Origin: an uncultured Paraprevotella sp. | Lineage (GTDB): Bacteria; Bacteroidota; Bacteroidia; Bacteroidales; Bacteroidaceae | Reading direction: 5' to 3' | Assembly (NCBI GenBank): GCA_944319925.1 | Contig: CALUFQ010000028.1 | Span: forward strand, 1 to 41,765 | DNA length: 41,765 bases | Shown: piece by piece, positions 7,401-41,316 of the stretch | How positions within the stretch are numbered: the stretch's first letter is position 1 | Layout of the letters: every line of letters begins with the position of its first letter | Translations under genes and position numbers: made by a program | The notes under the pieces: model-generated | Told to the model about the DNA's origin: nothing | The model's database searches: none | Seen by the model: only the letters and a program-made list of their open reading frames with translations

Positions 7401-7410
7401 CATTCGCTTT

Positions 7411-7483
7411 GCGACAATAGCTCAGTTGGTAGAGCATTGGCTTCCCAAGCCGAGGGTCGCGGGTTCGAGTCCCGTTTGTCGCT
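7411..7483 (+). tRNA. tRNA-Gly (anticodon CCC)
   Basis: The acceptor stem GCGACAA/TTGTCGC, D arm (AGCTCAGTTGGTAGAGC), anticodon stem TTGGC/GCCGA and T arm (loop TTCGAGT) all fold. The anticodon loop TTCCCAA puts CCC at 7444-7446, which reads the glycine codon GGG. The 73-nt gene has no encoded CCA. nhaD starts 19 nt after its end, with no terminator between. Confidence 0.96.
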
Positions 7484-7502
7484 CTCTTTTATTTGTTTTC
7501 CC

Positions 7503-9326: not shown

Positions 9327-9340
9327 GGAGGCTTGTGGAC

Positions 9341-15648: not shown

Positions 15649-15664
15649 GAGGTGTGCGAGGAGA

Positions 15665-18910: not shown

Positions 18911-18915
18911 GTCGG

Positions 18916-22525: not shown

Positions 22526-23637
22526 TGGTGGCCGGGCTGGGGGAACGCAAACCGTTGTGGCATGCGGGTTTCGTGAAAATCCTGCTGGCGGACTTCTTGG
22601 TGTGCGTTTCGCTCTACATGTTTCTCCCTGTGGCGTTTTTGTATGTGGCGGGAAACGTGTGGGCCGCAGCGTTGGCTTTTTTTGTGGGAATGTGTCTAGC
22701 CGGGCCTTTTTGCAATTATTGGTTGGATACATTCCGCCGCAAACACGTGGCGTTATGGGGCGTGGCTGGCGTGATAGCCACCACGGGGCTGTTCCTTTTC
22801 GACCTGGGCGCAATGGGCTTTTGCATGGCACGGTTGGTGCAAGGGGCGGCCTACGGGGTGTTCCAGATTGCTGTGGGAAGCACCTTGTTGCTGGACCTGT
22901 CCGATTCCGGGAAGCGCACGGAGGCGGCGCATGTCTATTATTGGTTCACTCGTTTGGCGTTGGCCTTCGGCCCGTTGGCGGGCATGGTGGTGATTCATGA
23001 TTTCGGGCCGCGCTTGTTTGTCGTTTCTTCGCTTCTCCTTAGTCTTTGCGCCGGTGGGATTTTGTGGACGCTGCGGGTTCCGTTCCGTGCTCCGCTCAAT
23101 CCGTCGTTATGCTCCTCCGACCGGTTCTGGCTGCGTCGCGGCTGGCGGGTTTTTGTGCCGCTTTTTCTGGTGGTGTTTGCTTCGGCGTCCTTGTTGGGCG
23201 GTTTTCGTGGGGCGTTGCCTTATTTGTGTCTGTCTTTGGGCTTTTGGCTGGCTTTGACATTCCATGTCTTGTTTTTCAAGGAACGCCTGCAGGCGGAATT
23301 GGCTGCTGGCTTTTTGGCGATGTTCCTTTCCTTTATATTATATGGTTGCGGGGAAGGGTGGGCCGCAGTGGCACTCGGTTGCGGGGTAGGGCTGGCCACT
23401 AGCCGTTACTTGTTGTCCTACATCCGCATTTGCGCCCATTGCGAGCGGGCTACGGCGCAGACTTCCTACCTGTTGGCTTGGGAACTGGGGCTGTTGTCGG
23501 GTTATGCCATGTCAACCACGGCGTTGAAAAATATGGAATGTTTGCCGCTTTGCGCAGGCTTCATCTTGCTCGGCACGGCCGCCTTGTTCCATGTTGTTTT
23601 TGTGCGGAAATGGTATGCCGCGCACAAGCGGAAGTAG
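22525..23637 (+). CDS. MFS-type permease, coupled to panB
   Basis: This 370-aa inner-membrane protein has about 11-12 hydrophobic helices and the look of the major facilitator superfamily: the first helix starts at FVKILLADFLVCVSLYMF. A basic cytoplasmic loop DTFRRKH follows helix 2-3, as in the MFS motif A position. MARLVQGAAYGVFQIAVGS resembles the fourth to fifth helix region. The ATG overlaps the panB stop by one base, so it is likely co-translated. It might move pantoate/pantothenate or a related metabolite, but only position suggests that. An in-frame TTG three bases upstream is not needed. A 400-nt gap follows, which carries the promoter and leader of the next operon. Confidence 0.82.
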   Translation: MVAGLGERKPLWHAGFVKILLADFLVCVSLYMFLPVAFLYVAGNVWAAALAFFVGMCLAGPFCNYWLDTFRRKHVALWGVAGVIATTGLFLFDLGAMGFCMARLVQGAAYGVFQIAVGSTLLLDLSDSGKRTEAAHVYYWFTRLALAFGPLAGMVVIHDFGPRLFVVSSLLLSLCAGGILWTLRVPFRAPLNPSLCSSDRFWLRRGWRVFVPLFLVVFASASLLGGFRGALPYLCLSLGFWLALTFHVLFFKERLQAELAAGFLAMFLSFILYGCGEGWAAVALGCGVGLATSRYLLSYIRICAHCERATAQTSYLLAWELGLLSGYAMSTTALKNMECLPLCAGFILLGTAALFHVVFVRKWYAAHKRK

Positions 23638-23737
23638 TTTTTCCGGCGGAAAAGGACCGGAAAACGGTGGCGTAACCGTTTTGTGATGCCCTTGAAACAT
23701 GTTTTTGAGCAAAAAAACACAAAAAAATTAGATTTTA

Positions 23738-23769
23738 TTGTGTGTTTCTAAAGATTTGTTGTACTTTTG
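23738..23769 (+). promoter_or_regulatory. Promoter of the FAS1/SusCD operon
   Basis: TACTTTTG (23762-23769) matches TAnnTTTG, and TTG at 23738-23740 is 21 nt upstream. No other good promoter is seen up to the first gene at 24038, so the leader would be about 260 nt long. Confidence 0.65.
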
Positions 23770-23781
23770 ATAATCGTTTGG

Positions 23782-23803
23782 CGGTGTGACGCGCACCGTT
23801 TTT
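23782..23803 (+). terminator. Hairpin plus T run just after the predicted transcription start
   Basis: CGGTGTG (23782-23788) pairs with CGCACCG (23792-23798, one G-T) around ACG and is followed by TTTTT. It has the shape of an intrinsic terminator and lies within about 10 nt of the predicted +1, so it could be an attenuator or simply protect the RNA 5' end. A further self-complementary ACGCATGCGT lies at about 23934-23943. Confidence 0.45.
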
Positions 23804-23851
23804 AGAAAATATTGAATAATTAACCTAATAGAGTGTAAAGTGCATAATATC

Positions 23852-23953
23852 ATGAAACCTACATTCTGTCACGGAAGAAGTCTTCTGCGCCTCATGAAAG
23901 GGCGGCACACGGGGATGGAACCCCGGGGAGATGACGCATGCGTTTTCCCCTGA
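23852..23953 (+). CDS. Possible 33-codon leader ORF
   Basis: ATG 23852 opens a 33-codon frame (MKPTFCHGRSLLRL ... DDACVFP) that stops at 23951-23953, inside the long leader of the FAS1/SusCD operon. It is too short to judge by composition and has no clear ribosome site. It could be a regulatory leader peptide or chance. Confidence 0.2.
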   Translation: MKPTFCHGRSLLRLMKGRHTGMEPRGDDACVFP

Positions 23954-24037
23954 CTGGGGCACGGGTGCGGATTTGTGCGGGCGGATTTCGGAAAGAAAAA
24001 TAAAACAAGAGTATTAAAATAGAAACCTAATGGAGAT

Positions 24038-26878
24038 ATGAAAGGCAGTAACATTAAACGTAAACTTTGTCGTTTTACTTATTCTGCTTGTGCTTTGTCT
24101 TTTGCCATGGGGATGTTTGTCTCGTGTGAGGACGAGTTGCTCACGGGGACACCGGATTGGCTGGGCAGCAGTATCTATGAGGAGCTGCAAAAGCGCGGGA
24201 ATTACCAAACGACGTTGAGCTTGATTAGTGATCCGGCCATCAATCAACAGACGGTCTTGAGCCTTACGGGGAGCAAGACGCTGTTTGTGGCCAACGACGA
24301 GGCCTATGACCGGTTCTTCAAGAACAATTCCTGGGGGGTGCGGAGCTTTGCCGAATTGAGCGAGGCGCAGAAAAAGCTTCTGTTCAATTCGTCCATGGTG
24401 AACAGTGCTTACCTCATCGAGTTGATGTCGGACTTGAGCAGTGAGGATGAGAATACCGAGGCGGGGGCCTGCATGCGGCGGGCCACGGCGCACGACGTTT
24501 TCGACTCCATTCCCGTCCTGCGCGCCGGCGACATGCCCGATAATCCGTATTGGGCGAAATTTCGCGAGCAGTATCCCGACGGGGGAAATGAGGGCATGCT
24601 TGTCTTGCGCGACAACACGAGTGCCTGGATGGCGCATTTCTTGCCGGCCTTCATGAGCAACAACGCCATTACCGACGACGACTTGTCGTTCCTGACCAAC
24701 GGGGCTTGTGACAACACGAATGAGTCTTACATTAACGGGCAACGTCTGACGGAACAGGACATCACGTGCCAGAACGGCTACATCCAGGTCGTGGAGAACG
24801 TGATGGAGCCGTTGCCGAACATGGCCGAGGTCATCCGTCAAGACCCCGAGCTGTCCATCTTCAGCGGCTTGTTGGACCGCTTCTGTGTGCCGGTGTTGGA
24901 TGAGGGGAATACGGAACGGTATAATCAATACAACACGGGCGAAACGAAGCCGGTGTATGTGTGGCGTTATTTCAATAGCGGTTTCGATCTCGGCGCCAAT
25001 GGCAATGCGCTGACGGCCACCGATGACGGCGTGGCGGCAGACAATTTGTTGCCCTACGATCCGGGATGGAACCAGTATCGTAATGCGACCGCTTCCACCA
25101 CGGCGGAAGACATGGCCGTCATCATCGCGCCCACCGATGATGCCTTCAACCGTTTCTTCACGGAGTCGGGTTCCGGAAAGTTCCTGATGGAGCAGTATGA
25201 AGATGTGGAGCACATTCCCGACCACATCGTGGTGGATTTGTTGGAGAACTTCATGAAAACCTCGCTGGTGGCTACGGTGCCCAGCAAGTTCGAGACCGTG
25301 ACGAATTCGGCGGGACATAAAATGAAACTTTCCAAGGGCGAACCGGGTGGAAAGACAGGCATCGGGTCTTGCCTCATGGCCAACAATGGCATGGTCTATA
25401 AGTCCAATGAAGTCTATGTGGTGCCCGAGTATCAGTCGGTGGCTTTCCCTGCCTCCTTGGACGATGACATCCGGATTATGCGCACCATCATCGAGGAACT
25501 GAACTACGATGCCTATCTGAACTCCATGGATAGCGAGTTCATGCTGATCCTGCCTACGGACGAGGCATTGTCCCATTACGTGGACCCTGTGGACTACCAG
25601 ACCAATTCGCCCACTGTGACCCGCTTCTATTATAATGACGACCCCGACCGTAAGCCGGAGGATAATCTTATTAAGTGCTATCGTTTCCGGGCTACCAGGA
25701 ATCCCGATGGCTCGCTGAGCTATCCTGACGTGATGAATGAGGATTTGGCGATGGCTAATCCGTGGGATAAGTATGCCACCGGTACGGACGAGGAACGGGA
25801 AAATGATTATGTGGAGAACCGCCTGAAGGACGTGTTGGAAAATTCCATCATTGTGAAAGACCGGGCGGCGAGTGCCGCCGCAGGGCGCGACGTGTGGGTG
25901 ACCAAGGGCGGATGCCCCCTGATTTTGTCCGGTTCGGGCGAGGGGCTGCGGATAATCACTCCTTATAATAAGGAAGTGGCCGAAAACGGAGGAGGTTCGC
26001 CCGATGAGCTTGTTGTGCGCCAAGGAGGTTATTACAACATGGGCACCAACCCGAACGGAAACGGCGAGACTTTCGTGGTGGACGAGGATGTGGTCAATCC
26101 GTCCAGCAAGTCTGTGCATACCCTGCTGGAGGAACTGGCAGAGAAAGACCCGCGTTACAGCGAGTTTTTGAATATATTGGATTTCAGTTCCTTGCGTGTA
26201 CTGTTGTGCGACCGCAAGGGGACGGGGTCTTCCTATAAATCTATAGGAAACGGTTATACGCTGAGTGTGATGCAGAACTATAATTATACGGTGTATGTGC
26301 CCACGACGGAGGAAATCCAGAAATTATATGATGAAAACCTCCTTCCCACGCGGGAATTTGTCGAGGAGAAGAGGGAAGAGTTGGAGAATGCTTCCATTGC
26401 AGAAAAGGAAAAGTTGCAAAATGAGGTGGATAGCTTGGAGGCGTTGATAGACAACTTCATCCGGTATCATATCCAAAGCCGTGCCGTATATTTGGGCGGG
26501 CCGAATGGTTCCGCGACCTATGAGACGACTTATTTGTCGGGTGGACGTTTTTCTACGTTGAGGGTGGACAACAACAGCTCTTATGACGGGAATACGCTTC
26601 AGTCTGGAGGCAGCCTTACGATACAGGCGTTGAATCGTGCCAATGAGCCGGTAGGCGATGAATGTCGCGTGTTGGAGGGCAATTATTTTGCCCGTGAATA
26701 CCATTTCCGTGCAGACCGTAGTGCGTTGGATGTGGACAGAGACACAAATAATGACCCCGTGATAGCAAGGATTGAACAGGCCACCCGCATCTATAACTCT
26801 GCTACGGCAGTGGTACATCTGATCGACAAGCCTTTGCCTTACTATGAGATCATGGGACTGGAGGCCACACAGAATTAA
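24038..26878 (+). CDS. Surface lipoprotein with about four FAS1 (fasciclin) domains
   Basis: First gene of the seven-gene operon. The signal peptide ends in the lipobox-like FVSC with Cys30, followed by EDE, an acidic pattern typical of Bacteroidetes lipoproteins sent to the cell surface. The FAS1 core strand recurs four times: TLFVANDEAYDRFF (~81), VIIAPTDDAFNRFF (~361), MLILPTDEALSHY (~502) and TVYVPTTEEIQKLY (~751). FAS1 domains are known from adhesion proteins; in Bacteroidetes they are often found beside SusC/SusD. At 946 aa it is the largest of the three FAS1 proteins here. A charged helical stretch (residues ~775-805) may form a coiled coil. The SusC gene follows after 28 nt. The ligand is unknown. 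Confidence 0.82.
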   Translation: MKGSNIKRKLCRFTYSACALSFAMGMFVSCEDELLTGTPDWLGSSIYEELQKRGNYQTTLSLISDPAINQQTVLSLTGSKTLFVANDEAYDRFFKNNSWGVRSFAELSEAQKKLLFNSSMVNSAYLIELMSDLSSEDENTEAGACMRRATAHDVFDSIPVLRAGDMPDNPYWAKFREQYPDGGNEGMLVLRDNTSAWMAHFLPAFMSNNAITDDDLSFLTNGACDNTNESYINGQRLTEQDITCQNGYIQVVENVMEPLPNMAEVIRQDPELSIFSGLLDRFCVPVLDEGNTERYNQYNTGETKPVYVWRYFNSGFDLGANGNALTATDDGVAADNLLPYDPGWNQYRNATASTTAEDMAVIIAPTDDAFNRFFTESGSGKFLMEQYEDVEHIPDHIVVDLLENFMKTSLVATVPSKFETVTNSAGHKMKLSKGEPGGKTGIGSCLMANNGMVYKSNEVYVVPEYQSVAFPASLDDDIRIMRTIIEELNYDAYLNSMDSEFMLILPTDEALSHYVDPVDYQTNSPTVTRFYYNDDPDRKPEDNLIKCYRFRATRNPDGSLSYPDVMNEDLAMANPWDKYATGTDEERENDYVENRLKDVLENSIIVKDRAASAAAGRDVWVTKGGCPLILSGSGEGLRIITPYNKEVAENGGGSPDELVVRQGGYYNMGTNPNGNGETFVVDEDVVNPSSKSVHTLLEELAEKDPRYSEFLNILDFSSLRVLLCDRKGTGSSYKSIGNGYTLSVMQNYNYTVYVPTTEEIQKLYDENLLPTREFVEEKREELENASIAEKEKLQNEVDSLEALIDNFIRYHIQSRAVYLGGPNGSATYETTYLSGGRFSTLRVDNNSSYDGNTLQSGGSLTIQALNRANEPVGDECRVLEGNYFAREYHFRADRSALDVDRDTNNDPVIARIEQATRIYNSATAVVHLIDKPLPYYEIMGLEATQN

Positions 26879-26906
26879 GCGAATAACCCTTAAACGAAGG
26901 AAAACG

Positions 26907-29900
26907 ATGAAAAATTTAAGATATTATCTTTTGGTTTGCTGCCTGGCGGTGGCCTTGGCGGTGAACGCACAGGGGATTACGAGCGTGAGCGGAACCGTGT
27001 CCGATTCTTTCGGGCCGGTGGCGGGGGCTGCTGTGGTCGAGGTGGACGCGTCCAACCGTAACATTTCAGCCACGGTGACCGATTTCAACGGTAATTTCAC
27101 CCTGAAAATCAAAAGCCCGCAAAACAAACTGAAGTTCAGCTATGTGGGCATGAAGCCACAGACCCTTCCCATCAACAAGCGGGTCTATAACATTACTTTG
27201 GAAGACGCCATGGTGCTCAAGACCGTGGAAATCAAGGCCAAAAAGCGCGTGGAGTCTTCCGGCTTGGCCATCCCCGAACGTGAATATTCGGGTGCCATGC
27301 AGACCATCAGTGCCAAGGAGTTCGAAGGCTTGGGCCTGACTTCCGTGGACGAGGCCCTGCAGGGACGTATCGCCGGTTTGGACATCGTGATGAATTCCGG
27401 AAACCTGGGTTCCGGCACGACGATGCGCCTGCGTGGTGTGACCTCCATCTCCACGCTGACCAGTTCAGATCCCTTGATTGTGGTGAACGGCGACGTGTGG
27501 AATGTCGATCAGACGGATTTCGATGTGAACACGGCCAACGACGAGCGTTTCGCCCAGTTGTTGAACATCAACCCCGAGGACATCGAGAGCATCAGCGTGT
27601 TGAAGGATGCCGCCGCGACGGCCATCTGGGGGTCCCAGGGTGCCAACGGTGTCATCGAAATCAAGACCAAGCGCGGTTCGCGCGGGGCACCCCGCCTGTC
27701 TTACTCGTTCCGTCTGACGGCGAACTACCAGCCCAAGGGCGTGGATTTGCTGACGGGCGACCAATACACCATGATGTTGAAGGAAGCCTACTTCAACCCC
27801 CGTCTGAGCGACGAGGCCGCCAACATTCCCGAGTTGAACTACATCACCGACCGCAGACAGTTCTCCGAGTGGCAGATGTTCAACAACAATACGGACTGGG
27901 TGGACGAAGTGACGCAGGTCGGCTGGCGGCAGAACCACTTCATTTCTATTACCGGTGGCGGCGAGAAAGCCACGTTCCGCATCTCCGGTGGGTACGACCA
28001 TGAGACGGGTTCTGTCATCGAGCAGCGGCTCGACCGCTTCACGACTCGCATGATGTTGGACTACTACGTGAGCGACCGCATCAAGATTATCAGTGACTTC
28101 TCCATGACCTACACGAAGAACCGCCGCAACTCGGACGACCTCTTGTCCATCGCCTACCGCAAGATGCCGAACCTGGCGATTTTTGAGGAAGACGAGCAGG
28201 GCAATTCCCTTGGCCGTTACTACGAGATGTTGCAGGGAGTGGAAGGCGACCGTTTGGGAGACCAGCGAGGATTGGTCAACCCGATTGCCAGCGCGAAATA
28301 TGCCAAGAACGACTACACGACGTATGCCATTGATCCCAAATTGGAGCTGCAGTATGACCTTCTCGGCGTGGATGCCAACTCCCACCGGCTGACCTATAAC
28401 GGAAAGGTCGTGATGAATGTGTTCAATGCTTATACAGACACTTATTATCCGCGCGACCTGTCCACGCGTGAGTGGAACAACGGCGTGAGCAGTGCGTCGA
28501 GTGCCAGTTCCAAGAGCTTGGCGTTCACCACGACGCATACCCTGACGTTCCAGCCCCATTTCCTGAACGAGGACCATTCCCTCATGGCGATGGGACGCTT
28601 CCAGCTGGTGTCCGGCACGTCGAGCGACCAAAGCACGAACGTGGCCGGCCTGCCCCATGGCATCGAGGCGCCGAGCGCGGGCGGCATCAATCCGGGCATG
28701 TCCAGCAACTTCAACCGTTGGCGCAGCCTTTACTACACCTTCTCCGCCCACTATGCTTATAAGGAAAGGTATATTTTCGACGTGTCTGCCCGTGTGGACG
28801 GCACCACCAAGTTCGGCCCCGGCAGCCGTTGGGGTGTGTTCCCTGCCGTGTCCGGCCGTTGGAACATCATTGATGAACCTTGGATGGAAGGCACCCGCAA
28901 GTGGTTGTCCATGTTGTCCATCCGTCCGGGTTGGGGTATGACGGGTAACCAGCCCCGTGAGGACTACCTTTATGTGAACCAGTATGTGTCGGCGAACACT
29001 TATTTGGGCACGTCCGCCATGGCACCGGGCAACTTGAAGATGAACACTCTCAAGTGGGAGCGGAAATACAGTTGGAATGTCGGTTTCGACCTCGGCTTTT
29101 GGGACAACCGGCTCACGGCGGACATCAACCTCTATTGGCAGACCACGAAAGACATGTTGATGGGCAACGTCCGGGTGCCGAGCATTTCCGGTTTTGTGAA
29201 TTATCCTTATCGGAACGCCGGCGACATGCAGAACAATGGTTGGGAATTCAACATCCAGACCAACCGCCTGGTGCAGAAAGGCAAGTTCTTCATGGACGTG
29301 AACGTCACGTTTGCCAACAACCGGAACGTCATCACGCGGATGGACCCGAACATCCTGGCCACGTTGAACACCGACTGGGAGCCTGCGAACGCTAAGTTGT
29401 TGCAGCGGGTGCAGGTGGACAATCCCTTCGGCGCGATTTACGGCTACCGTTCCAAGGGGGTCTATATGTACAACTATGAGACTTACCTGAAGAATTACCG
29501 GGCGGCGCACCCGACGAACCCGACGACCAACCCGGATCCCGAGGCCGTGCAGTGGCTGGCCGATTTCAACAACAACGGTTTTACGGCTCCCATCGTCTAT
29601 GACGCGAACGGACAGGTGGTGAAGGACATGAACGGCGACCCCTTGCAGATGAAATTCAACTACACCTCGGGTAACATCACCAGCGGCACGAACTTCAAAG
29701 GTGGCGATGCCATTTATGAAGACGTGAACCACGACGGCAGCATCAACCAGCTTGATGTGGTTTACCTAGGCAACTCCCTGCCGAAGCTGACGGGTGGTTT
29801 TGGCTTCCGTTTCACTTACGACCGGTGGAGCCTGAACGCGCAGTTCAACTATCGTATCGATTACGACATCGTGAACATGGCGCGGCTGAACATGGAGAGC

Positions 29901-30281
29901 ATGAGCAGCAACAACAACCAAAGCCAGGCCGTGAACTATCGTTGGCGTAAGGAGGGTAATCAGACCACCATCCCGCGTGCCATGATCAATTCGGAAAATG
30001 TGCCCAATTTCAACACGATGATTAGCGACCGTTTCGTGGAGGACGGCACGTTCCTGCGCCTGAACTACCTGCAGCTCTCCTACAGCTTGCCGGAAAAGAT
30101 GGCCAAGAAAATCGGGTTGCGCGGCTTGCGTTTCTATGCCAGCGGCAACAACCTGTTCTGCCTGACGAAGTATTCGGGCGTGGATCCCGAGTTGGGTTAC
30201 GGCGGTTACAGCGTGACGACGGACAACGCGCAGACTCCGCGTGCCAAGTCATATACCTTGGGTGTCACGATTGATTTCTAA
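26907..30281 (+). CDS. SusC-family TonB-dependent outer-membrane transporter 1
   Basis: This 1124-aa protein has a signal peptide (KNLRYYLLVCCLAVALAVNA), a carboxypeptidase-regulatory-like domain (SVSGTVSDSFGPVAGAAV, ~25-100), a plug domain with the SusC signature ISVLKDAAATAIWGSQGANG, and a 22-strand type beta barrel ending in TLGVTIDF. No STN domain is present, so it should not signal to an anti-sigma factor. A short acidic turn, DVNHDGSINQLD, resembles the calcium-loop-like segment common in SusC proteins. The open frame extends upstream to 26844, but ATG 26907 begins exactly at the signal peptide. It works with the SusD lipoprotein encoded 21 nt downstream to import a ligand across the outer membrane. 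Confidence 0.95.
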   Translation: MKNLRYYLLVCCLAVALAVNAQGITSVSGTVSDSFGPVAGAAVVEVDASNRNISATVTDFNGNFTLKIKSPQNKLKFSYVGMKPQTLPINKRVYNITLEDAMVLKTVEIKAKKRVESSGLAIPEREYSGAMQTISAKEFEGLGLTSVDEALQGRIAGLDIVMNSGNLGSGTTMRLRGVTSISTLTSSDPLIVVNGDVWNVDQTDFDVNTANDERFAQLLNINPEDIESISVLKDAAATAIWGSQGANGVIEIKTKRGSRGAPRLSYSFRLTANYQPKGVDLLTGDQYTMMLKEAYFNPRLSDEAANIPELNYITDRRQFSEWQMFNNNTDWVDEVTQVGWRQNHFISITGGGEKATFRISGGYDHETGSVIEQRLDRFTTRMMLDYYVSDRIKIISDFSMTYTKNRRNSDDLLSIAYRKMPNLAIFEEDEQGNSLGRYYEMLQGVEGDRLGDQRGLVNPIASAKYAKNDYTTYAIDPKLELQYDLLGVDANSHRLTYNGKVVMNVFNAYTDTYYPRDLSTREWNNGVSSASSASSKSLAFTTTHTLTFQPHFLNEDHSLMAMGRFQLVSGTSSDQSTNVAGLPHGIEAPSAGGINPGMSSNFNRWRSLYYTFSAHYAYKERYIFDVSARVDGTTKFGPGSRWGVFPAVSGRWNIIDEPWMEGTRKWLSMLSIRPGWGMTGNQPREDYLYVNQYVSANTYLGTSAMAPGNLKMNTLKWERKYSWNVGFDLGFWDNRLTADINLYWQTTKDMLMGNVRVPSISGFVNYPYRNAGDMQNNGWEFNIQTNRLVQKGKFFMDVNVTFANNRNVITRMDPNILATLNTDWEPANAKLLQRVQVDNPFGAIYGYRSKGVYMYNYETYLKNYRAAHPTNPTTNPDPEAVQWLADFNNNGFTAPIVYDANGQVVKDMNGDPLQMKFNYTSGNITSGTNFKGGDAIYEDVNHDGSINQLDVVYLGNSLPKLTGGFGFRFTYDRWSLNAQFNYRIDYDIVNMARLNMESMSSNNNQSQAVNYRWRKEGNQTTIPRAMINSENVPNFNTMISDRFVEDGTFLRLNYLQLSYSLPEKMAKKIGLRGLRFYASGNNLFCLTKYSGVDPELGYGGYSVTTDNAQTPRAKSYTLGVTIDF

Positions 30282-30302
30282 TTTTTGAAAAAGCAAACTG
30301 AT

Positions 30303-32015
30303 ATGAAAAAGATATGGTTTAAATCTGTGTGCGTGGCCTTGGCGGGGTTGTCCTTGGCTTCTTGCGGCGATTTCCTGCAAATCTATCCTCTGACCATGGT
30401 CTATGAGGACAACTATTGGAACGAGAAGAAGGATGTGGACCAGATTGTGGCCGGATGCTACACCCGCATGCAGGATGACGATTTCATGCGCCGGGTGTTC
30501 CTGTGGGGCGAAGTGCGTTCCGACAACGTAATCTATTCCGGTTCTAGACTTAGGAATGCTAATTCCGAATCGGATGAGGCGAAGTTCGTGAACGAGAACA
30601 TCCTGTCCACCAATATCTATACCACTTGGGACGCGTTCTATTCGGTCATTGACCGCTGCAACCTGGTCATTGCGAAGATTCCCGAGGTGGCGGCTGCCGA
30701 CCCGAGCTACCTGGAGAGCGACCAGCTGGCCACGATTGCCGAAGTGTCCGCGCTGCGTGCCTTGTGTTACTTCTATTTGGTGCGTACGTTCAGGGACGTG
30801 CCTTACTATACGTATGCCATCACCAATGACGAGCAGCCGCTTAATTTGCCGGTTACGCGTGGCGAAGAAATCCTGCAGAACCTGATTGCCGACTTGGAGT
30901 CGGTGTGGTCCAACGCCTTGACGGCCTGGCCGGCGCAAGATGGGGTCGATGTGAGTTATGGGCGCATCACGCAAAATGCCATTTTCGCCCTGTTGGCCGA
31001 CATGCACCTGTGGCTGGGCAATTTCACGCAAGCGGCGGACTACGCCGAGCGGGTCATAAAAGCCAAGAGAGAGTATTTCGAAAACAACCGCTCTTATCCT
31101 TCCTTGAGGTTGAACGGGGAGACTTGGCCGTTGATACCGGATAATGGGCCGACTTATCCTGTGGGCTATGCTTATCAGTATAATTTTGGAAATGGAGCAG
31201 TGGTTTACGGTCCCGAAACGGCAAGCCCTGAGAGCGTCTTTGAGTTGAATTTCTCGAATAACATTGAGGATGCTACGGCAAAGGGCAACCCGATTGTGCC
31301 AAGCTTGTTCCGAAATTTGTGGGGAGAAACGGATTGGGGGTGCTATTCGCCGGCTGCGTCTTTGGAGACGGAATTCAATTCGCCGTCATTGTTTCCTGCG
31401 AATGATTCCCGCATTCGTGAATCTATGAGGAATGAATCCGGAGGCTTGTCGATAGCCAAATATGTGTATCCTAGTATTACGGAACCGGTAGATGACGATG
31501 ATGATGGCTACGGTTTGTCTATTTCCCAACGCAATGTGGCTAACTGGATATTTTACCGCGTGAGTGAGATCATGCTTATCAAGGCGGAAGCGTTGATTTA
31601 CCAGATGTCTGATGACGGATCTGAACGTGATGAGGAATTGCGGAGCGAGGCGTTCGCCCTTATCAATGCCGTGGAGACACGTTCCGCCGACGAGGGGCAA
31701 TCTTCCTTGAGTTCTGCTGAATATTCGACAAAATCCACCATGATTGAGTTGGTTTATCAGGCGCGTCGCCGGGAATTGATGTTTGAAGGCAAGCGCTGGT
31801 TCGACCTCGTGCGCCGCAGCATTCGCGATGGGAACACGACTTATCTCAGAAGCCAGGTGCAAAACAAATACAACAGCGCAACGACCGCCAACAAGTTTGG
31901 GGATTTTAACGCCGTTTATTTGCCTTACAATCATAACGAGGTCGTGGTGAATGAAAACTTGCAGCAGAACCCGGCTTATCCGGAGGAAGGGGAATCTTAC
32001 GAGTCAACGAATTAA
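30303..32015 (+). CDS. SusD/RagB-family surface lipoprotein 1
   Basis: This is the ligand-capturing lid of the SusCD pair. The lipobox is LSLASC with Cys21 in the 570-aa protein starting at ATG 30303, followed by GDFLQIYP, the usual SusD N-terminal pattern. ALRALCYFYLVRTFRDVPYYT is the typical TPR-like helix (given here as ALRALCYFYLVR and FRDVPYYT), and the C-terminal REL.FEGKRWFDLVRRS block is classic. An in-frame TTG at 30285 is unlikely to be used. It follows SusC 1 after 21 nt. Part of the middle (about 31150-31660) is more AT-rich with different codon preferences than its flanks. The ligand cannot be predicted. Confidence 0.94.
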   Translation: MKKIWFKSVCVALAGLSLASCGDFLQIYPLTMVYEDNYWNEKKDVDQIVAGCYTRMQDDDFMRRVFLWGEVRSDNVIYSGSRLRNANSESDEAKFVNENILSTNIYTTWDAFYSVIDRCNLVIAKIPEVAAADPSYLESDQLATIAEVSALRALCYFYLVRTFRDVPYYTYAITNDEQPLNLPVTRGEEILQNLIADLESVWSNALTAWPAQDGVDVSYGRITQNAIFALLADMHLWLGNFTQAADYAERVIKAKREYFENNRSYPSLRLNGETWPLIPDNGPTYPVGYAYQYNFGNGAVVYGPETASPESVFELNFSNNIEDATAKGNPIVPSLFRNLWGETDWGCYSPAASLETEFNSPSLFPANDSRIRESMRNESGGLSIAKYVYPSITEPVDDDDDGYGLSISQRNVANWIFYRVSEIMLIKAEALIYQMSDDGSERDEELRSEAFALINAVETRSADEGQSSLSSAEYSTKSTMIELVYQARRRELMFEGKRWFDLVRRSIRDGNTTYLRSQVQNKYNSATTANKFGDFNAVYLPYNHNEVVVNENLQQNPAYPEEGESYESTN

Positions 32016-32036
32016 CAGGAGAATGAACATTAGCTT

Positions 32037-34283: not shown

Positions 34284-34301
34284 TAACCTTTTAATGCAGA
34301 A

Positions 34302-36029
34302 ATGAAGATGAAACTGAAATATGGAATACGGACGGGACTGGCGGCGGTGGCTGCCGCCGTCTCCGTCATCTGTTGTACGGACACGTGGGACGAGCATTAC
34401 GGCGCGGACGGTTCGTTGGCCGGCAGCGCGGGGGCCACGTTGTGGGACAACTTGCGGCAGGACGAGGCTTTGCGTCCTTTTGCCACAGTGCTGGACTCTT
34501 GCGGCTACGCGCCGGTGTTGAATGGTTCGCAGGTGTTTTCCGTGTGGGCACCCCAAATCACGGAGCAGGAAGCCGCCGGTTGGATTGCGGCTTATCAGGA
34601 GGCCCGTGCGGGGAATGACGGGGAGAACCCGGCTTTGCATGAGTTTATCCGTAACCATATCGCGTTGTTCAACCACCAAGTGTGGGAACAGACGGATGAC
34701 ACGGTGCGGATGATGAATGGCAAGCGCATCGCGCTAACCTCTTCCAGCTTTGGCGGGGAGGCCATGCTGGGCGACAAGGTGCCTTCTTCGAATGGCATGT
34801 TGTATAAGGTGGCGGGCACCGTGCCTTTTTACCCGAACATTTGGGAACAGGTGCGCCGCGAAGCCACGGGGGGCAGCGACGGGTTGGACAGCGTGGAAGC
34901 ATTTTTCCGGAATTGGGCCTACGAAGTGTTGGACGAAGGGGCGAGTGTGCCTGGCGGCATCAAAGACGGGAAGACGGAGTATTTGGATTCCGTGATGATT
35001 TCTTATAACACGTTTTTCAACAGCTATGGCCGCATAGATTCCGAGGACAGCCTGTATTGGTTGTTGGTGCCGACCAATGCGGAATGGGAGAAAATTGTGG
35101 AGCGGAACCGTTCGTTCTTCGTTCATCATAATGACCGCTTGGAGGCGGGTGACTCCTTGCAAGACCTTTATTCCAAGTACATGTTGCTCGAAGCGTCTTT
35201 CTTCAATGCGCGTACGCAGCCGGGACGCAATTGGAACGCGGAAAATCCGGATTCCATTTGCTCGACCATGTATGATGCTAGAAATTATGGCTACAATTGC
35301 TTTGAGCGGCCTTTCGACGAGGGGGGAGTGCTCCAGGGGCTGACCCCGGTGGAATGTAGCAACGGGCGTCTCTATAAGACGGCGGAATGGAACGTGCCGT
35401 TGGAGAAATCGAGTTACATGCAAACCGTGAAGATAGAGGCAGAAAATGAACAGAATTGGGAATATGTGAACACAACCACCAGTAACACGGTGGTGGCCAC
35501 GCGCATGAAGGCCGATGCCGCTTATGCCGGTTTGGTTTCGGGGGGAGAGTTCTTGTGGGTGGAAGATAATAATACGCGTTATAACAAACGTGCGCAAATC
35601 ATCATCAAGCTGCCTGGGAATCTGTCGGGATGCCCCTACGACATCAAGGTGGTCTTTGCCTCGCCGTTGGTATTGGGGGCGGACTATTTGGAAGAAGCCA
35701 TGCTAAAACGCAGGGTGACGGCATCCGTCAATTACCATCAATCGGTGTCTGGGGGCTTTAAAACGACCGCAGATAATGTCTGCACCAACGAAGAAATTGA
35801 TGCGATGCTGATGGACACGGTGACCGTGGCGGAAGGTTTCAATGCGCGGGTCAGCGGATACAGCGGATACGGATTCCCCGTATGCGCATACGGGGAAGAG
35901 GAGGCTCGCGTGCAACTGACCTTGCAAGGCATCTTGGGGGCTAATCCGCCCAAGGGATATGCCAGCCCGTTGCTGATTGACTGTGTCCTCTTTGTGCCGC
36001 GTCCGGACTTGATTGAGGAGAACGACTGA
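34302..36029 (+). CDS. FAS1-domain surface lipoprotein (C)
   Basis: This 575-aa protein has a signal peptide ending in SVICC (Cys24/25) followed by TDTWDEHY, a start often seen in Bacteroidetes FAS1 lipoproteins. FAS1-like cores occur at VFSVWAPQITEQEAAGW (~79) and YWLLVPTNAEWEKIV (~252). As in protein B, the last ~200 residues form a beta-rich part (QTVKIEAENEQNWEYV ... RAQIIIKLPGNLSGCPYDIKV ... LLIDCVLFVPRP, with the middle part shortened to IIIKLPGNL here) that ends in a strand like the end of protein B. ATG 34302 and ATG 34308 are both possible starts. It precedes SusC 2 by 30 nt. Role inferred: surface binding or scaffold for the second SusCD pair. Confidence 0.72.
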   Translation: MKMKLKYGIRTGLAAVAAAVSVICCTDTWDEHYGADGSLAGSAGATLWDNLRQDEALRPFATVLDSCGYAPVLNGSQVFSVWAPQITEQEAAGWIAAYQEARAGNDGENPALHEFIRNHIALFNHQVWEQTDDTVRMMNGKRIALTSSSFGGEAMLGDKVPSSNGMLYKVAGTVPFYPNIWEQVRREATGGSDGLDSVEAFFRNWAYEVLDEGASVPGGIKDGKTEYLDSVMISYNTFFNSYGRIDSEDSLYWLLVPTNAEWEKIVERNRSFFVHHNDRLEAGDSLQDLYSKYMLLEASFFNARTQPGRNWNAENPDSICSTMYDARNYGYNCFERPFDEGGVLQGLTPVECSNGRLYKTAEWNVPLEKSSYMQTVKIEAENEQNWEYVNTTTSNTVVATRMKADAAYAGLVSGGEFLWVEDNNTRYNKRAQIIIKLPGNLSGCPYDIKVVFASPLVLGADYLEEAMLKRRVTASVNYHQSVSGGFKTTADNVCTNEEIDAMLMDTVTVAEGFNARVSGYSGYGFPVCAYGEEEARVQLTLQGILGANPPKGYASPLLIDCVLFVPRPDLIEEND

Positions 36030-36059
36030 TTTTGTAGAACCATATTTAGAACATGAAGA

Positions 36060-39000
36060 ATGAAAAGATATAGATTCTATTGTTTGGCTTTGTTGATGGC
36101 GGGGGCTTTGGGTGCCCAAGCACAGGAGGAGGCTGCGGCCGACACGCTGTCTGCCGCCGCACGTCCGGCCAACACGATAAAAAAGGATGTGAAGACCCGG
36201 CCGGTGAGCGGGCGGGTGTGCAGTGTGTCATCCGGAACGCCGCTGCCGGGCGCGCTGGTCAGTGTGAGCGGTTATGAGGGCTACAGTACGCTGACGGGCG
36301 AAGACGGCACTTACAAGTTCGAGGTGCCCGAGTATGCTACGGCCTTGCAGGTCGCCGCACCCGACCATAACACGGTGCGCGTGGGCATCAACAAGTCCGG
36401 TCTGTTGGGCGATGTCATCCTGTATTCCACCATGACGCGGTCGAAGTATGGCGCGGATGACAACATCATGAACACGGTGGAGGCGGACAACTTCGCTTAC
36501 AGCCCTTCTTTGAACATCACGTCGGAAATCGGGGACCAGCTCGGGGCATACGTGCGCACCATTTCGCGCGGCGGCACACCGGGCATCGGGAACTACATGA
36601 TGATGCACGGCATCAACTCCTTGAATGCCAATGCCCAGCCCTTGGTGGTCATCGACGGGGTCATTGTGGACCAGCAGTATGACCGCAGCGTACTCCACGA
36701 CGGTTTCTACAACGACATCCTGACTTCGTTCAACGTGAACGAAATTAAAAGTGTGGAGGTCGTGTCCAACGGGACGGCCCTCTACGGCGCGAAGGGTGCG
36801 AACGGTGTCATCCTCATCGAGACCAAGCGCAACACGAGCTTGGCCACCAAGATTGACGCCACGGCCTCGGTGGGCATCACCCTCCTGCCCAAGAAACTCG
36901 ACATGATGAACGGGGCGCAGTACAAGACGTATGCCTCCGACCTGTTGCAGGGGACGGGCACGAACATCACCAACTTCTCCTTCCTCTCCACCGACCCGAA
37001 GAATTACTATTACAACAAGTATAACAACAACACGGATTGGGGCGACGTGATCTATGACGAGGCTTTCTCACAGAACTACGGCATCACGGTGCAGGGTGGC
37101 GATGACATTGCCAGCTATTTCCTGGCCTTGGGCTACAACGGGGCGCACAGTGTGTTGAACGAGAACGACATGAACCGCCTGAACATTCGGTTCAACACGG
37201 ACATCAACATGTTCAAGCGGCTTTTCGTGCGCTTCGACGCGTCTTACAGTAACGTGACGCGCAACCTGAAAGACCAGGGTGCGCCGGAGGGCTATGACGA
37301 GGGTACGGTGACTTCGCTCAACTTCCTCGGATGGGCGAAAAGCCCGATGCTCAGCCCATATTCCTACGCCGCCGGGCAGATTTCCACTGCGGCATACGAC
37401 ATCACGGACGAGGATTACCTGGCCCAGGCTTTGTCGGGCATGGACAACGTGAACTACCAGTTGGCCAATCCGGCAGCCATCAATGAATACGGCACGGCGC
37501 AGAACAAAAATTATTTTGAAAATTCCTACATGAACATCGCCGTGACCCCGAAGTGGGAGTTCAACAAGCACCTTTATATCAGCTCGTTGTTCAGCTACAC
37601 GCTGACCAACACGGCCGACAAGTATTACGTGCCAATCAACGGGGTGCCGGCTTACTATGTAAGTTCGTTGGACTTGGTGCGGGAGAATGAAATCCGTTCA
37701 ATGTACGCCTCGCAGAACTCCATCACAAGCGACACGAAGCTCGTGTGGGAGAACCAGTATGGGGCGCACAGCATCGACCTGATGGGCGGCTTCCGCTACA
37801 TGAACGACCGTTACAAGGTGGACACCCAGCTGGGGTACAACACCGGCAGCGACAAGACCCCGTTCATCAACAACACGCAGAACAAGCAGACGACCGGTGC
37901 CAGCAACCGCTGGACTTCCATCACGTGGTACGGGCAGGCGCGTTACGACTACCGCAAGCGTTACTTCGTGGAAGGCAACCTGGCCGTGGAAAGCTCCTCG
38001 CGTTTCGGCAAGGAAGCCAAGGAGGGGTTCAAACTCGGCGGGGTGCGCTGGGGCGTGTTCCCGGGTATCCAGGCCGGATGGGTGTTGAGCAACGAGAGTT
38101 GGTTCGACGTGCCGGGCGTGGACTACGCGCGCTTCAGCATGGGCTTCGACGTGAGCGGCAACGACGGCATCGCGTATGATGCCACGCGTACCTATTTCGA
38201 GAGCATCCTCTACCAAGGATGGTCTAACGGCTTGGTGTTGGGCAACATCGGGAACACGGAGCTGCAGTGGGAAACGACCCGCCGTTTCAACTTCGGCGCA
38301 GACCTGAATTTCCTGAACAACCGCCTGAACGTGAAGCTCGACGTGTATAAGAGCTGGACGGACAACCTGCTGACCTACCATGAACTGAACTTCCTCACCG
38401 GCGTGGAGAACAACTGGGTGAACGGCGGTTCGCTGGAAAACAAGGGCTTCGTCCTGAGCTTCAATGCCCATTTGCTGGCCAAACGCGACTGGAACTGGGA
38501 ATTGGGGGCCAGCGTGGGCCGCTACAAGAACAAGCTGACCGCCCTGCCCGACGGGCAGCAATACGTCGATACCCCGGTGTATGGCGGCACGATCCGTTCG
38601 GAAATCGGACAGCCCGTGAACCTGTTCTACGGTTACAAGACGGGAGTGACGGAACAAGGGACTTCCGTGTATGCCACTTCCCGGGAGGCCGCAGCCGACG
38701 GGCTGTTCATCAAGGCTGAAAACGGCGACCCCATTTATTTCGGTGCGGGCGACGTGAAGTTTGTGGACAAGGACGGCAATCATGAAATCAACGAGGAAGA
38801 CATGCAGGTCATCGGCGACCCGAACCCGGACATCTTCGGCAACATCTTCACTTCCGTGAGCTGGAAACGGCTCCGCCTGGACGTGAACTTCAACTACAGC
38901 TTGGGGAACGATGCTTACAACTACCTGCGCTCGCAGCTGGAAGGTGGCAGCCGTTTCATGAACCAGACCGTGGCCATGGTGAACCGCTGGTCGTATGAAG

Positions 39001-39314
39001 GGCAGGCCACCGACATGCCGAAAGCATCGTGGGACGACCCGATGGGCAACGCCCGCTTCAGCGACCGCTGGATTGAGGATGCCAGCTACCTGCGCCTGAA
39101 GTCCATCACGCTGAGCTACGAGCTCCCGCTCAACAATGCGTTCATCCACGGGCTGACGTTCTGGGGGCAGGCCAACAACGTGTTCACCGTGTCCAAGTAT
39201 TTGGGACAAGATCCGGAGTTCTCCATGGGCAACAGTGTTTTGGAACAAGGCATCGACCGCGGCCTGTTGGCCAACAGCCGCAACTTCATGCTGGGTATAA
39301 AAATCAACTTATAA
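36060..39314 (+). CDS. SusC-family TonB-dependent outer-membrane transporter 2
   Basis: This 1084-aa protein has a signal peptide (YCLALLMAGALGAQA), a linker rich in Ala, a carboxypeptidase-regulatory-like domain (RPVSGRVCSVSSGTPLPGA, ~47-120), a plug with VEVVSNGTALYGAKGANG (a variant of the SusC signature, with SNGTALYGAKGAN in place of KDASATAIYGSRGAN) and a large beta barrel. There is no STN domain. The segment FVDKDGNHEINEED is the acidic SusC loop. It shares only general family features with SusC 1, so the two pairs are unlikely to be a recent tandem duplication. An upstream ATG at 36053 is out of frame. SusD 2 begins 12 nt after its stop. Confidence 0.94.
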   Translation: MKRYRFYCLALLMAGALGAQAQEEAAADTLSAAARPANTIKKDVKTRPVSGRVCSVSSGTPLPGALVSVSGYEGYSTLTGEDGTYKFEVPEYATALQVAAPDHNTVRVGINKSGLLGDVILYSTMTRSKYGADDNIMNTVEADNFAYSPSLNITSEIGDQLGAYVRTISRGGTPGIGNYMMMHGINSLNANAQPLVVIDGVIVDQQYDRSVLHDGFYNDILTSFNVNEIKSVEVVSNGTALYGAKGANGVILIETKRNTSLATKIDATASVGITLLPKKLDMMNGAQYKTYASDLLQGTGTNITNFSFLSTDPKNYYYNKYNNNTDWGDVIYDEAFSQNYGITVQGGDDIASYFLALGYNGAHSVLNENDMNRLNIRFNTDINMFKRLFVRFDASYSNVTRNLKDQGAPEGYDEGTVTSLNFLGWAKSPMLSPYSYAAGQISTAAYDITDEDYLAQALSGMDNVNYQLANPAAINEYGTAQNKNYFENSYMNIAVTPKWEFNKHLYISSLFSYTLTNTADKYYVPINGVPAYYVSSLDLVRENEIRSMYASQNSITSDTKLVWENQYGAHSIDLMGGFRYMNDRYKVDTQLGYNTGSDKTPFINNTQNKQTTGASNRWTSITWYGQARYDYRKRYFVEGNLAVESSSRFGKEAKEGFKLGGVRWGVFPGIQAGWVLSNESWFDVPGVDYARFSMGFDVSGNDGIAYDATRTYFESILYQGWSNGLVLGNIGNTELQWETTRRFNFGADLNFLNNRLNVKLDVYKSWTDNLLTYHELNFLTGVENNWVNGGSLENKGFVLSFNAHLLAKRDWNWELGASVGRYKNKLTALPDGQQYVDTPVYGGTIRSEIGQPVNLFYGYKTGVTEQGTSVYATSREAAADGLFIKAENGDPIYFGAGDVKFVDKDGNHEINEEDMQVIGDPNPDIFGNIFTSVSWKRLRLDVNFNYSLGNDAYNYLRSQLEGGSRFMNQTVAMVNRWSYEGQATDMPKASWDDPMGNARFSDRWIEDASYLRLKSITLSYELPLNNAFIHGLTFWGQANNVFTVSKYLGQDPEFSMGNSVLEQGIDRGLLANSRNFMLGIKINL

Positions 39315-39326
39315 AATTGGGCTTTT

Positions 39327-41258
39327 ATGAAACTGAAATCTTATATTATCATGCTTGCGGCAGCTGCGGGGACAGGTCTCTTCAGCGCCTGCGAGGACAT
39401 GCTCGAACCGACCTCGGAATATGTGCTCTATGACGACGGAAGCCACCTGACCACCCCGGCGGACACCGCCAACTCCTTGGTGGGCCTCTTCTACAAGTTG
39501 CAGGCCATCGGCGACCGCACCAACCTGCTGGGCGAGATACGGGGCGACTTGGTGAACTTGCGCTCCAATGCCAGCACGGACTTGAAGGACTTGTACAATT
39601 TCAACGTGGGCGACGACAACAAGTATAATAATCCGCGCGATTATTACGCGATTATCAACAACTGCAACTACTACGTCACTCATGCCGACATGGAGGCGTT
39701 TGACAACCGGGGCGACCGCATCTTTGAGAAGGAAATGGCACAGGTGAAAGCCATCCGGGCTTGGACTTACCTGCAACTGGCGTTGAACTACGGGAGTGTG
39801 CCTTTCTACGACCAGGCTCTGCTCACGGAGCAGGATGCAAATGCCATCGACCTCACGGCCTCCCGGAGGGATATCGTGGGCATTTGTGATTACTTTATCA
39901 ACGACTTGCAACCGTATAGCCAAACGGAATGGCCGAAATTGCACGGGGTGGGTTCTGTCGTGTTGGCCAATTGCTATTTCCCGGTGGACATGGTGCTGGG
40001 CGACCTCTATTTGTGGCGGGCTTCCTTGACAGGAAGTGTTGCAGATTACCGTTCGGCTGCGCGTTGCTATTACCGTTGGATTTTGGATGAGCGTTTAGTT
40101 GACCGTATAGGTAATTCTTCTTATATGAAGTCTATATATTATCCAAACCGGTATTCTGTTGAGTGGGGGAGTGATGGTGCTGTACTTTCTTCGTTATCAG
40201 ACTCTTATTCTGGCCTGTTCTTGATGAGTACTAATGGGTATGGGGTTTATAATGAGCCATTTACTATTATTGCAATGGACTCGGCAGCCAGCCAAGGTTA
40301 TTATAGTGAATTGCCGAGACTGTATAACACTCAAACCGCACTGAATGATGATGGTGGAATATATTTTGATACCTCTGACGGGGAATATTGCATTACGCCT
40401 TCCACTTATTTGCAGGAAATCAGCATGGCGCAGTCATATTATTTGCTGACTTCTGATGGAATACCTGTGGAGATTGAATGGGATGAGGATGCGGATCCCT
40501 TGGTGACGGGTGACCTTCGCTTGTGGAGGTTGTGGAGTTCTGGTTCATACAATACAACCATAGGTGGCGAACCTGCCACGGGTACTTTCTCCCGACTTAC
40601 GAAAAACAACCAACGTGCCATTTGGATTTATCGCCAGACCGACACGTGGCTGCGTTTGGCCGAAGCCCTGAACGGGGCCGGGTTGCCGCGCATGGCCTAT
40701 GCCATTTTGGCCACAGGCATCAGTCGTGGGGTCGTGGAGGACAGCATCAAGCCTTATTGCACCGATGCGGATTGGGCTTTCGTTGAAGAGCTGAACAGCA
40801 TGGGGACGGGCAACAGTTTTGCAAAATTCAATTCCCGGAATGGTGTACGTTCCGTACCTGATATGAATACCATAGGCATCCATTCGCGCGGAAGCGGCTA
40901 TGCAGAGTTGAATCCGGACTATGCTTACCCGATGGTGGATTCGATAGCCGCCGACGGCGTGACACCCATCAACGGCTATACGGGACAAGACACGCTGGAG
41001 TGGGCGCAGTTGCATTTGGAAGAGGAGAAACTCCGCGTGGACAGTATGTTGTTGACCGAAATGGCCTTGGAGACGTGTTTCGAAGGCAAGCGTTTCTATG
41101 ACCTGATGCGCTTCGCCAAGCGTCACCACGACAATGCCTGGCTGGCCGACCCTGTCAGCAAACGCAAGGGCGCGGAAAACCAGGATCAAGGGCTCCGCAA
41201 TCTCCTGATGACGGAGGACAATTGGTATTTGAACTGGAGAGGCCAAATCGGGCGGTAA
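39327..41258 (+). CDS. SusD/RagB-family surface lipoprotein 2
   Basis: This 643-aa SusD partner of SusC 2 has the lipobox GLFSAC (Cys22) followed by EDMLEP. The helix QVKAIRAWTYLQLALNYGSVP and C-terminal CFEGKRFYDLMRFAKR are classic SusD/RagB segments (first given here as AIRAWTYLQLALNYG). It is longer than SusD 1. Bases about 40080-40600 are clearly AT-richer and use different codons from the rest of the gene, as if that part had been exchanged. It is the last gene of the operon. Directly after the stop comes a run of eight C and hairpins, then the mobile-element scar. Confidence 0.93.
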   Translation: MKLKSYIIMLAAAAGTGLFSACEDMLEPTSEYVLYDDGSHLTTPADTANSLVGLFYKLQAIGDRTNLLGEIRGDLVNLRSNASTDLKDLYNFNVGDDNKYNNPRDYYAIINNCNYYVTHADMEAFDNRGDRIFEKEMAQVKAIRAWTYLQLALNYGSVPFYDQALLTEQDANAIDLTASRRDIVGICDYFINDLQPYSQTEWPKLHGVGSVVLANCYFPVDMVLGDLYLWRASLTGSVADYRSAARCYYRWILDERLVDRIGNSSYMKSIYYPNRYSVEWGSDGAVLSSLSDSYSGLFLMSTNGYGVYNEPFTIIAMDSAASQGYYSELPRLYNTQTALNDDGGIYFDTSDGEYCITPSTYLQEISMAQSYYLLTSDGIPVEIEWDEDADPLVTGDLRLWRLWSSGSYNTTIGGEPATGTFSRLTKNNQRAIWIYRQTDTWLRLAEALNGAGLPRMAYAILATGISRGVVEDSIKPYCTDADWAFVEELNSMGTGNSFAKFNSRNGVRSVPDMNTIGIHSRGSGYAELNPDYAYPMVDSIAADGVTPINGYTGQDTLEWAQLHLEEEKLRVDSMLLTEMALETCFEGKRFYDLMRFAKRHHDNAWLADPVSKRKGAENQDQGLRNLLMTEDNWYLNWRGQIGR

Positions 41259-41270
41259 CCCCCCCCGATT
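41246..41270. repeat. Small inverted repeat across the SusD 2 stop
   Basis: AATCGGG (41246-41252) pairs with CCCGATT (41264-41270); the loop contains the stop codon and most of a C8 run. There is no T run. It may stabilise the mRNA end. Confidence 0.4.
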
Positions 41271-41281
41271 GGCACAGACTA

Positions 41282-41316
41282 CAGCGCGCCCCGCCCACTA
41301 CAGGCGGGGCGCGCTG
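41282..41316. terminator. Strong GC hairpin ending the FAS1/SusCD operon
   Basis: CAGCGCGCCCCGCC (41282-41295) is perfectly complementary to GGCGGGGCGCGCTG (41303-41316) around CACTACA. No clear T run follows on either strand, so it may be a terminator of reduced type or a REP-like element. The same position is where the integrase fragment on the other strand loses similarity. Confidence 0.5.

Follow-up and report, generated by a model that had tools for sequence, protein, structure and literature searches.

The stretch of DNA analysed here (the window) is one complete contig (C28, 41,765 nt) of a Paraprevotella genome of 3.11 Mb in 105 contigs, and on its plus strand (24038-41258) it carries seven genes in the order FAS1a-SusC1-SusD1-FAS1b-FAS1c-SusC2-SusD2, combining three fasciclin-domain (FAS1) lipoproteins with two unlike pairs of a SusC-type transporter and a SusD-type lipoprotein (SusCD). 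This order is a conserved module, probably a common and undescribed plant-fibre uptake system. Our reading, on which we place about even confidence, is that of a two-transporter uptake module whose FAS1 lipoproteins would bind plant cell-wall fragments, likely pectic ones, with the enzymes coming from elsewhere in the window's lineage. The genes are as follows:

24038-26878, plus strand: FAS1a, lipoprotein with a lipobox-like FVSC and an invariant D at +2; of its four FAS1-like segments two are firm, one is probable and one is weak
26907-30281, plus strand: SusC1, TonB-dependent transporter of the SusC/RagA type (TIGR04056, 704.9 bits)
30303-32015, plus strand: SusD1, SusD-type lipoprotein (PF07980, 79.2 bits)
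32037-34283, plus strand: FAS1b, lipoprotein with two FAS1 segments and a C-terminal region
34302-36029, plus strand: FAS1c, lipoprotein with two FAS1 segments and another C-terminal region
36060-39314, plus strand: SusC2, second and different SusC/RagA-type transporter (TIGR04056, 527.8 bits)
39327-41258, plus strand: SusD2, second SusD-type lipoprotein (PF07980, 30.3 bits; PF14322, 20.1, below its cut-off of 27)

The intergenic gaps measure 28, 21, 21, 18, 30 and 12 nt, with starts chosen to fit signal peptides: the SusC1 start was set to 26907 by inspecting the signal peptide (the listed open reading frame, ORF, from 26844 overlaps FAS1a), and for SusD1 the ATG at 30303 was preferred over the listed TTG at 30285. 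With these revised starts, the tight seven-gene operon with gaps of 12-30 nt that an earlier reading of the sequence (the first-pass annotation) had described stands, as does its remark that neither SusC has an STN domain, none being reported in Pfam and TIGR04056 profile scans. Both SusCs are SusC/RagA-type barrels above the TIGR04056 cut-off of 368.25 bits, and beside each lies a SusD-type lipoprotein above the PF07980 cut-off of 23.1, its lipoprotein signal judged by eye. A lipobox-like signal was recognised in the same way in all five non-SusC proteins, and the cysteine together with the aspartate two places on is invariant across all three FAS1 families; these signals fit surface lipoproteins, and a surface location is what we would expect of the proteins.

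The window genome holds four diverged copies of the module, the three further ones (in C39, C52 and C63) in the same gene order. Among the four, the FAS1 proteins share 28-43% identity and SusC1 53-62%, and together they hold eight of the 13 full-length SusC frames of the genome (TIGR04056 above cut-off), one more SusC lying in two pieces. The search for this gene order across genomes, which the first-pass annotation had proposed, found it strongly conserved. All of the first 12 loci read (three own copies, eight from other Paraprevotella genomes and one from another genus) keep the order, with FAS1b doubled in L030 and L040, a short FAS1b followed by a gap of ~400 nt in L036, and two loci (L033, L040) cut by the fetched stretch. 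Selected by FAS1c match were 97 further loci: 77 strong ones picked by hand, one per genome save G501 with two (G135, G066 and G200 were among those left out), and 20 weaker ones from 19 genomes, added to offset the choice of strong matches. Exact seven-gene order was found in 56 of the 77, with 12 lacking FAS1b, one having it doubled, four carrying a gene split over two frames (FAS1b being absent from one of these) and four cut by contig ends but ordered (again one without FAS1b). The weaker set comprises 15 exact loci, three without FAS1b, one in which FAS1b has moved to the front (L173) and one without SusCD (L189). Pooled, 96 of the 97 carry the SusCD genes in order, 71 of them exact, 15 lacking only FAS1b and four contig-cut; in these 96 SusCD-bearing loci no foreign ORF of at least 150 aa lies inside the module and no member is on the other strand. 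Three control loci with FAS1-domain matches only, fetched with the 77, hold no SusCD of the module families. We propose to define the module as FAS1a-SusC1-SusD1-(FAS1b)-FAS1c-SusC2-SusD2 with nothing inside, a layout that the window and its genome's own copies have. Chance stacking of common SusCDs is ruled out by this conservation of order. The locus without SusCD (L189, G027:C8:59070-79069) has FAS1c-, FAS1a- and FAS1b-like genes together beside an 846-aa ORF.

The module ranges widely. FAS1c matches occur in 154 of 221 genomes of the family and 17 of its 27 genera (E <= 1e-3, with order checked only in the loci read); the closest named relative of FAS1c (78% identity over its full length) is in an uncultured Paraprevotella bin. 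At 1e-20, 20 of 247 genomes of the order match, the window's included, and they span 12 other families; loci from five of these families (19 such genomes were found besides the window's) keep the module order in five of five cases. The 854-aa ORF that opens L190 could not be identified as FAS1a; L192 carries an additional FAS1b-like gene, and its SusD1 is split over two frames. In the genome of L190, contig G620:C7 has FAS1c matches at 94050 and 115116, ~21 kb apart, and the L190 run from SusC1 to SusD2 is directly followed by FAS1a, so that two modules probably stand in tandem there. Across the phylum, 63 of 296 genomes match at 1e-3: besides the window's, six are strong (E < 1e-30) and 56 weaker, mostly of FAS1-domain length. 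The six strong genomes belong to another class, at a guess Flavobacteriia, and all seven of their loci are in the seven-gene order.

The two SusCD pairs are clearly different, as the first-pass annotation had maintained. Proteins of the SusC1 type share ~23-28% identity with those of the SusC2 type in long alignments, and against nine other SusCs each type forms an exclusive clade with support 1.0, the union of the two not being a clade (some deep nodes have support of 0.18-0.48). A simple tandem duplication is ruled out on this ground, with the same weak deep nodes in mind. The seven genes are inherited jointly: in the 67 loci with seven genes, the pairwise distances of all seven proteins rise together (Spearman 0.77-0.91, to which shared species history contributes). 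Mean identities in these loci are 0.52 for SusC1 and 0.47 for SusC2, 0.39 and 0.37 for the SusDs, and 0.37, 0.36 and 0.30 for FAS1a-c; on these values, the putative FAS1 binders evolve faster than the SusC barrels. Among solved structures, 8aa4 ('SusC homolog') is the best relative of either SusC, ahead of RagA.

The identity of the three lipoproteins had to be drawn partly from relatives and family profiles, because FAS1c has no Pfam Fasciclin match of its own. FAS1a passes the Fasciclin cut-off of 22 bits directly (42.9) and FAS1b falls just under it (19.5). Within the families, Pfam Fasciclin (E <= 0.5) matches 12 of 12 FAS1a members (best 5.3e-17), 13 of 13 FAS1b members (best 7.4e-21) and eight of 12 FAS1c members (best 3.4e-11), and all three family profiles find periostin or TGFBI structures, with best E-values of 1e-22 to 1e-10 (8.6e-12 for FAS1c against TGFBI). 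Comparison of the individual segments (a1-a4, b1-b2 and c1-c2) by hhalign, from alignments of 85 FAS1a, 79 FAS1b and 90 FAS1c sequences, links a1, a4, b1, b2, c1 and c2 each to at least one other segment at 95-99, some over short stretches of 48-61 columns: a1 to b1 at 99.0, a4 to b1 at 98.1, b1 to c1 at 98.5, b1 to b2 at 97.0 (61 columns) and c1 to c2 at 95.0 (48 columns). Segment a2 reaches 83-88 (88.3 to c2) and a3 at best 62.6, and many pairs score low (a1 to a4 at 19, for example). From these links, we take FAS1a to consist of consecutive FAS1-like segments, two of them firm and up to four in all; FAS1b and FAS1c each contain two, and their C-terminal regions have no recognisable relation to FAS1 in this comparison. 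All three proteins thus carry FAS1 domains, as had been claimed, FAS1a on its own match and the other two by way of relatives and profiles. We do not claim that the C-terminal regions of these two are carbohydrate-binding modules (CBMs): among 13 members, Pfam gave only weak matches, to Endotoxin_C in two and a CBM-like one in one.

Signals around the operon are those of a single unit, with the following features at its two ends:

23738-23769, plus strand: promoter-like site, with TTG at 23738-23740 (-33 type) and TACTTTTG at 23762-23769 (-7, TAnnTTTG type)
23770-24037, plus strand: 5' leader of ~268 nt, with AACCTAATRGA close to its 5' end and repeated immediately ahead of the FAS1a start codon
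41282-41316, plus strand: terminator-like hairpin of two perfect 14-bp arms with a 7-nt loop and no T run

Measured against what we take to be the promoter consensus (-33 TTG, -7 TAnnTTTG), the site at 23762-23769 is the only plus-strand TAnnTTTG match with a TTG at the right distance; 23401-41300 holds three such matches on the plus strand and two on the other, a count near chance. Of six Paraprevotella upstream regions placed in one alignment, five retain the -7 element (the window and L033-L036; it is absent in L038), and the -33 TTG is common to the window and L033 only. The element is not general, since it was found within 450 nt of FAS1a in only 30 of 72 other loci. In the same alignment both AACCTAATRGA blocks are alike in five orthologs and the middle of the leader differs, and a regulatory role of the leader is possible. 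A structured leader RNA was considered and set aside: the fold of 23775-24060 is weakly better than shuffles (z -1.70), and Rfam has no match in 20000-41765. The hairpin that follows SusD2 has arms that are 100% complementary and folds far better than shuffles (z -4.59), and none of the six intergenic stretches contains an inverted repeat of at least 8 nt. Nothing convincing suggests that separate promoters split the cluster, which the first-pass annotation had named as a finding that would speak against it: internal sigma-70-type matches are about as common as in shuffles (14 against 13.5 expected), neither of the TAnnTTTG matches inside the operon has a -33 box, and the 24 terminator-like matches are little above the 18.6 expected from shuffles (sd 4.8), several of them inside genes.

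SusCD pairs import pieces of glycans or peptides through a TonB-driven barrel with a SusD lid. We propose that the three tandem-FAS1 proteins, which occupy the place usual for surface glycan-binding proteins, would capture a polymer or its fragments at the cell surface and hand them over to two unlike SusCD importers, each of which may admit its own pieces or linkages from a single glycan family. That two dissimilar SusCDs are constantly found together suggests a single ligand that yields two sorts of fragment. That glycan would most likely be a plant cell-wall polysaccharide of the pectic type, and in the window's lineage the cutting enzymes would be made elsewhere or by other bacteria. Direct contact between the FAS1 proteins and SusCD, the substrate, and a ligand family shared by both pairs are what we infer; a complex shared by both SusCD pairs is a guess.

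The clues to the substrate lie beside the module in relatives. A pectate-lyase-like gene adjoins it in five of 100 stretches (L108, L183, L184, L186, L188). In the latter four, which belong to the seven shorter Bacteroidaceae-type loci (L182-L188), it encodes a lipoprotein directly before FAS1a, with gaps of -257, 19, 29 and 10 nt (from mechanical ORF starts); L108, from another class, has two such ORFs after SusD2. The protein matches the pectate lyase 9buj in the Protein Data Bank (3.5e-34). In G257, a genome of the other class, the module lies between a glycoside hydrolase (GH) of family GH115 next upstream and a rhamnogalacturonate lyase next downstream, with GH28 and GH106 within ~12 kb of the fetched stretch; in G501, also of that class, GH95 adjoins the module and GH106, GH28 and two polysaccharide lyases of family PL11 follow within ~20 kb; and in G074 the lyase adjoins the module with GH106 ~13 kb away. 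Among the best 25 of 54 families tallied, GH43 occurs in 13 of the 95 neighbours that lie on the same strand no more than 600 nt away, and GH115, GH67, GH3, GH10, GH2, a GH catalytic-core family and a SASA esterase in one or two cases each. The first-pass annotation's statement that there are no enzymes therefore stands for the window operon and fails for the module as a kind, given the lyase in four of L182-L188, the two in the other-class locus, and GH43, GH115, GH3 and GH10 elsewhere. Its broader suggestion of surface binding, adhesion or uptake of a ligand processed elsewhere can be narrowed, because these neighbours make the uptake of plant cell-wall fragments likelier than plain adhesion.

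Several observations weigh against a pectic substrate. Most module neighbours, among the best 25 of the 54 families in the tally, are not carbohydrate enzymes, and a group of 11 orthologous upstream genes, with GH43 in the one member scanned, probably accounts for the majority of the 13 GH43 neighbours. The lyase is absent at 1e-20 from all eight Paraprevotella genomes tested and GH106 is missing in six of seven, the window's included both times; four of six other-class genomes lack any GH28, PL11 or GH106 match in the vicinity of the copy read; and GH115 is linked in few copies. FAS1 domains, moreover, are best known from adhesion and not from sugar binding. GH115 was rejected as a linked marker, being found at the copy read only in G257 among 15 genomes searched, plus G174 by the neighbour scan. 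As far as the contig reaches, the locus in the window is neither a strict polysaccharide-utilisation locus (PUL) nor a pectin locus. No carbohydrate-active enzyme or regulator was recognised in its operon or the 17 proteins scanned 5' of it, nor was a hybrid two-component system or an ECF/anti-sigma pair found there to go with an STN-type SusC, and pectate lyase, GH28 and rhamnogalacturonan enzymes are not linked to it; L030-L041 likewise have no lyase. The window genome does hold two PL11 and four weak GH28 matches, none of them on module contigs. Linked pectic enzymes are found in the lyase-bearing relatives (L108, L183, L184, L186, L188) and, in other form, near the G257 and G501 copies. 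The pectic reading is accordingly firmest for the lyase-linked copies and is only an extension for the window.

Three other explanations have to be set against plant-wall uptake. The two importers may serve unrelated ligands, form no common complex and be joined in one operon for the sake of regulation alone; the order does read as two FAS1-SusC-SusD units with FAS1b between them, FAS1b can be lost (15 of 100 loci, plus two split or cut ones), and the tree does not place SusC1 and SusC2 as sister groups. No uncut locus holds one half alone, and no ORF of at least 150 aa separates the halves, and we consider such independence unlikely; a lone first half would have escaped notice because the loci were chosen by FAS1c. 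Peptide or glycoprotein uptake in the manner of RagAB, with FAS1 proteins that bind proteins and SusCs that import peptides, is rather unlikely in our estimate: the solved SusC-type relatives of the two transporters include RagA, and no enzyme was found in the window operon, but 8aa4 ranks ahead of RagA among those relatives, the recurring adjacent enzyme is a pectate lyase, and no peptidase family appears among the best 25 of 54 neighbour families. This explanation can also draw on FAS1 proteins of other organisms, which bind proteins according to a review (PMC6032426).

Least probable in our view is that the FAS1 proteins serve primarily to fix the cell to a plant or host matrix, the SusCD pairs being outer-membrane platforms. 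Periostin and TGFBI have four FAS1 domains, and the tandem FAS1 arrangement of the module (up to four segments in FAS1a) resembles theirs; the FAS1 proteins also change faster than the SusCs (mean identity 0.30-0.37 vs 0.47-0.52). Two complete and co-inherited importers, however, would be costly for anchoring alone, and degradative enzymes adjoin the module in some relatives. Beyond the plant-wall uptake that we prefer, a bolder version can be entertained tentatively: the module may be a separate and old Bacteroidota uptake machine, in which the two unlike SusCD importers and the three FAS1 lipoproteins join into one surface complex that binds pectic wall material and imports two fragment types, and which enzyme-based PUL rules have missed.

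Like the SusCD/RagAB systems (starch Sus and the levan and dextran utilisomes), the module encodes in a single operon a SusC-type TonB-dependent barrel, a lipoprotein of the SusD type and further lipoproteins; 8aa4 and 5t3r come from the dextran and levan systems. It differs from them in having two unlike SusCD pairs in a fixed order and three FAS1 lipoproteins instead of SusE/F-type binders, and its operon is usually free of enzymes. It has FAS1 domains, which all three profiles detect, in common with periostin and TGFBI; these are animal matrix proteins that have neither a lipid anchor nor partner transporters. A PUL of ~27 kb from a mussel symbiont also combines two SusCD pairs; unlike the module, it holds other metabolic genes and enzymes (PMC10199937). 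A FAS1-domain gene is labelled in the figure legend of a hemicellulose-type PUL of Gramella (Flavobacteriaceae) with GH5, GH9 and GH26, and the section around that legend does not describe a double-SusCD FAS1 order (PMC4891872). In the literature searched, from which most subscription articles and all preprints fall away, we found no description of a FAS1 double-SusCD module and no characterised PUL of such make-up, in keeping with the annotation's view of the system as the best candidate in the window for an undescribed one.

PUL mining often seeks SusCD pairs beside carbohydrate enzymes. One published rule requires SusCD to be accompanied, within a seven-gene window, by two or more GH or PL genes (PMC10405439), and it would pass over the module, none of whose seven genes encodes an enzyme. 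Yet operons of this kind hold most of the full-length SusCs of the window genome. Were the ligand pectic, the module would account for part of the uptake of plant material by gut and environmental Bacteroidota, and bacterial FAS1 domains would gain a directly testable role in nutrient capture.

Around the module, the genes upstream of the window operon are housekeeping-like (HAD, ketopantoate hydroxymethyltransferase, MFS), and the orthologs L033-L036 and L038 have an upstream ORF of similar length, 377-390 aa (length alone was compared). The contig ends ~500 nt past SusD2, so the 3' side of the locus cannot be judged within the window; in G010 the next large ORF 3' of the module (1252 aa) is on the opposite strand and has no Pfam match. 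Searches of two unknown neighbour families against solved structures gave nothing of use. An orthologous gene follows the module in L076, L077, L078, L079, L082 and L083, and the one member scanned is DUF4301, of which the neighbour tally has six; a DUF4301 gene also lies in the window at 4600-6114, probably by coincidence. Elsewhere in the window, the citrate-transporter-like ORF listed at 7398-8912 must start further in because it overlaps a tRNA-Gly gene (7411-7484), and 9335-12302 encodes a bpMoxR-type MoxR ATPase and, after it, a vWA protein. At 12832-18919 lies a minus-strand pair of a PDDEXK nuclease and a UvrD-like helicase plus nuclease, similar to an AddAB-type recombination enzyme.

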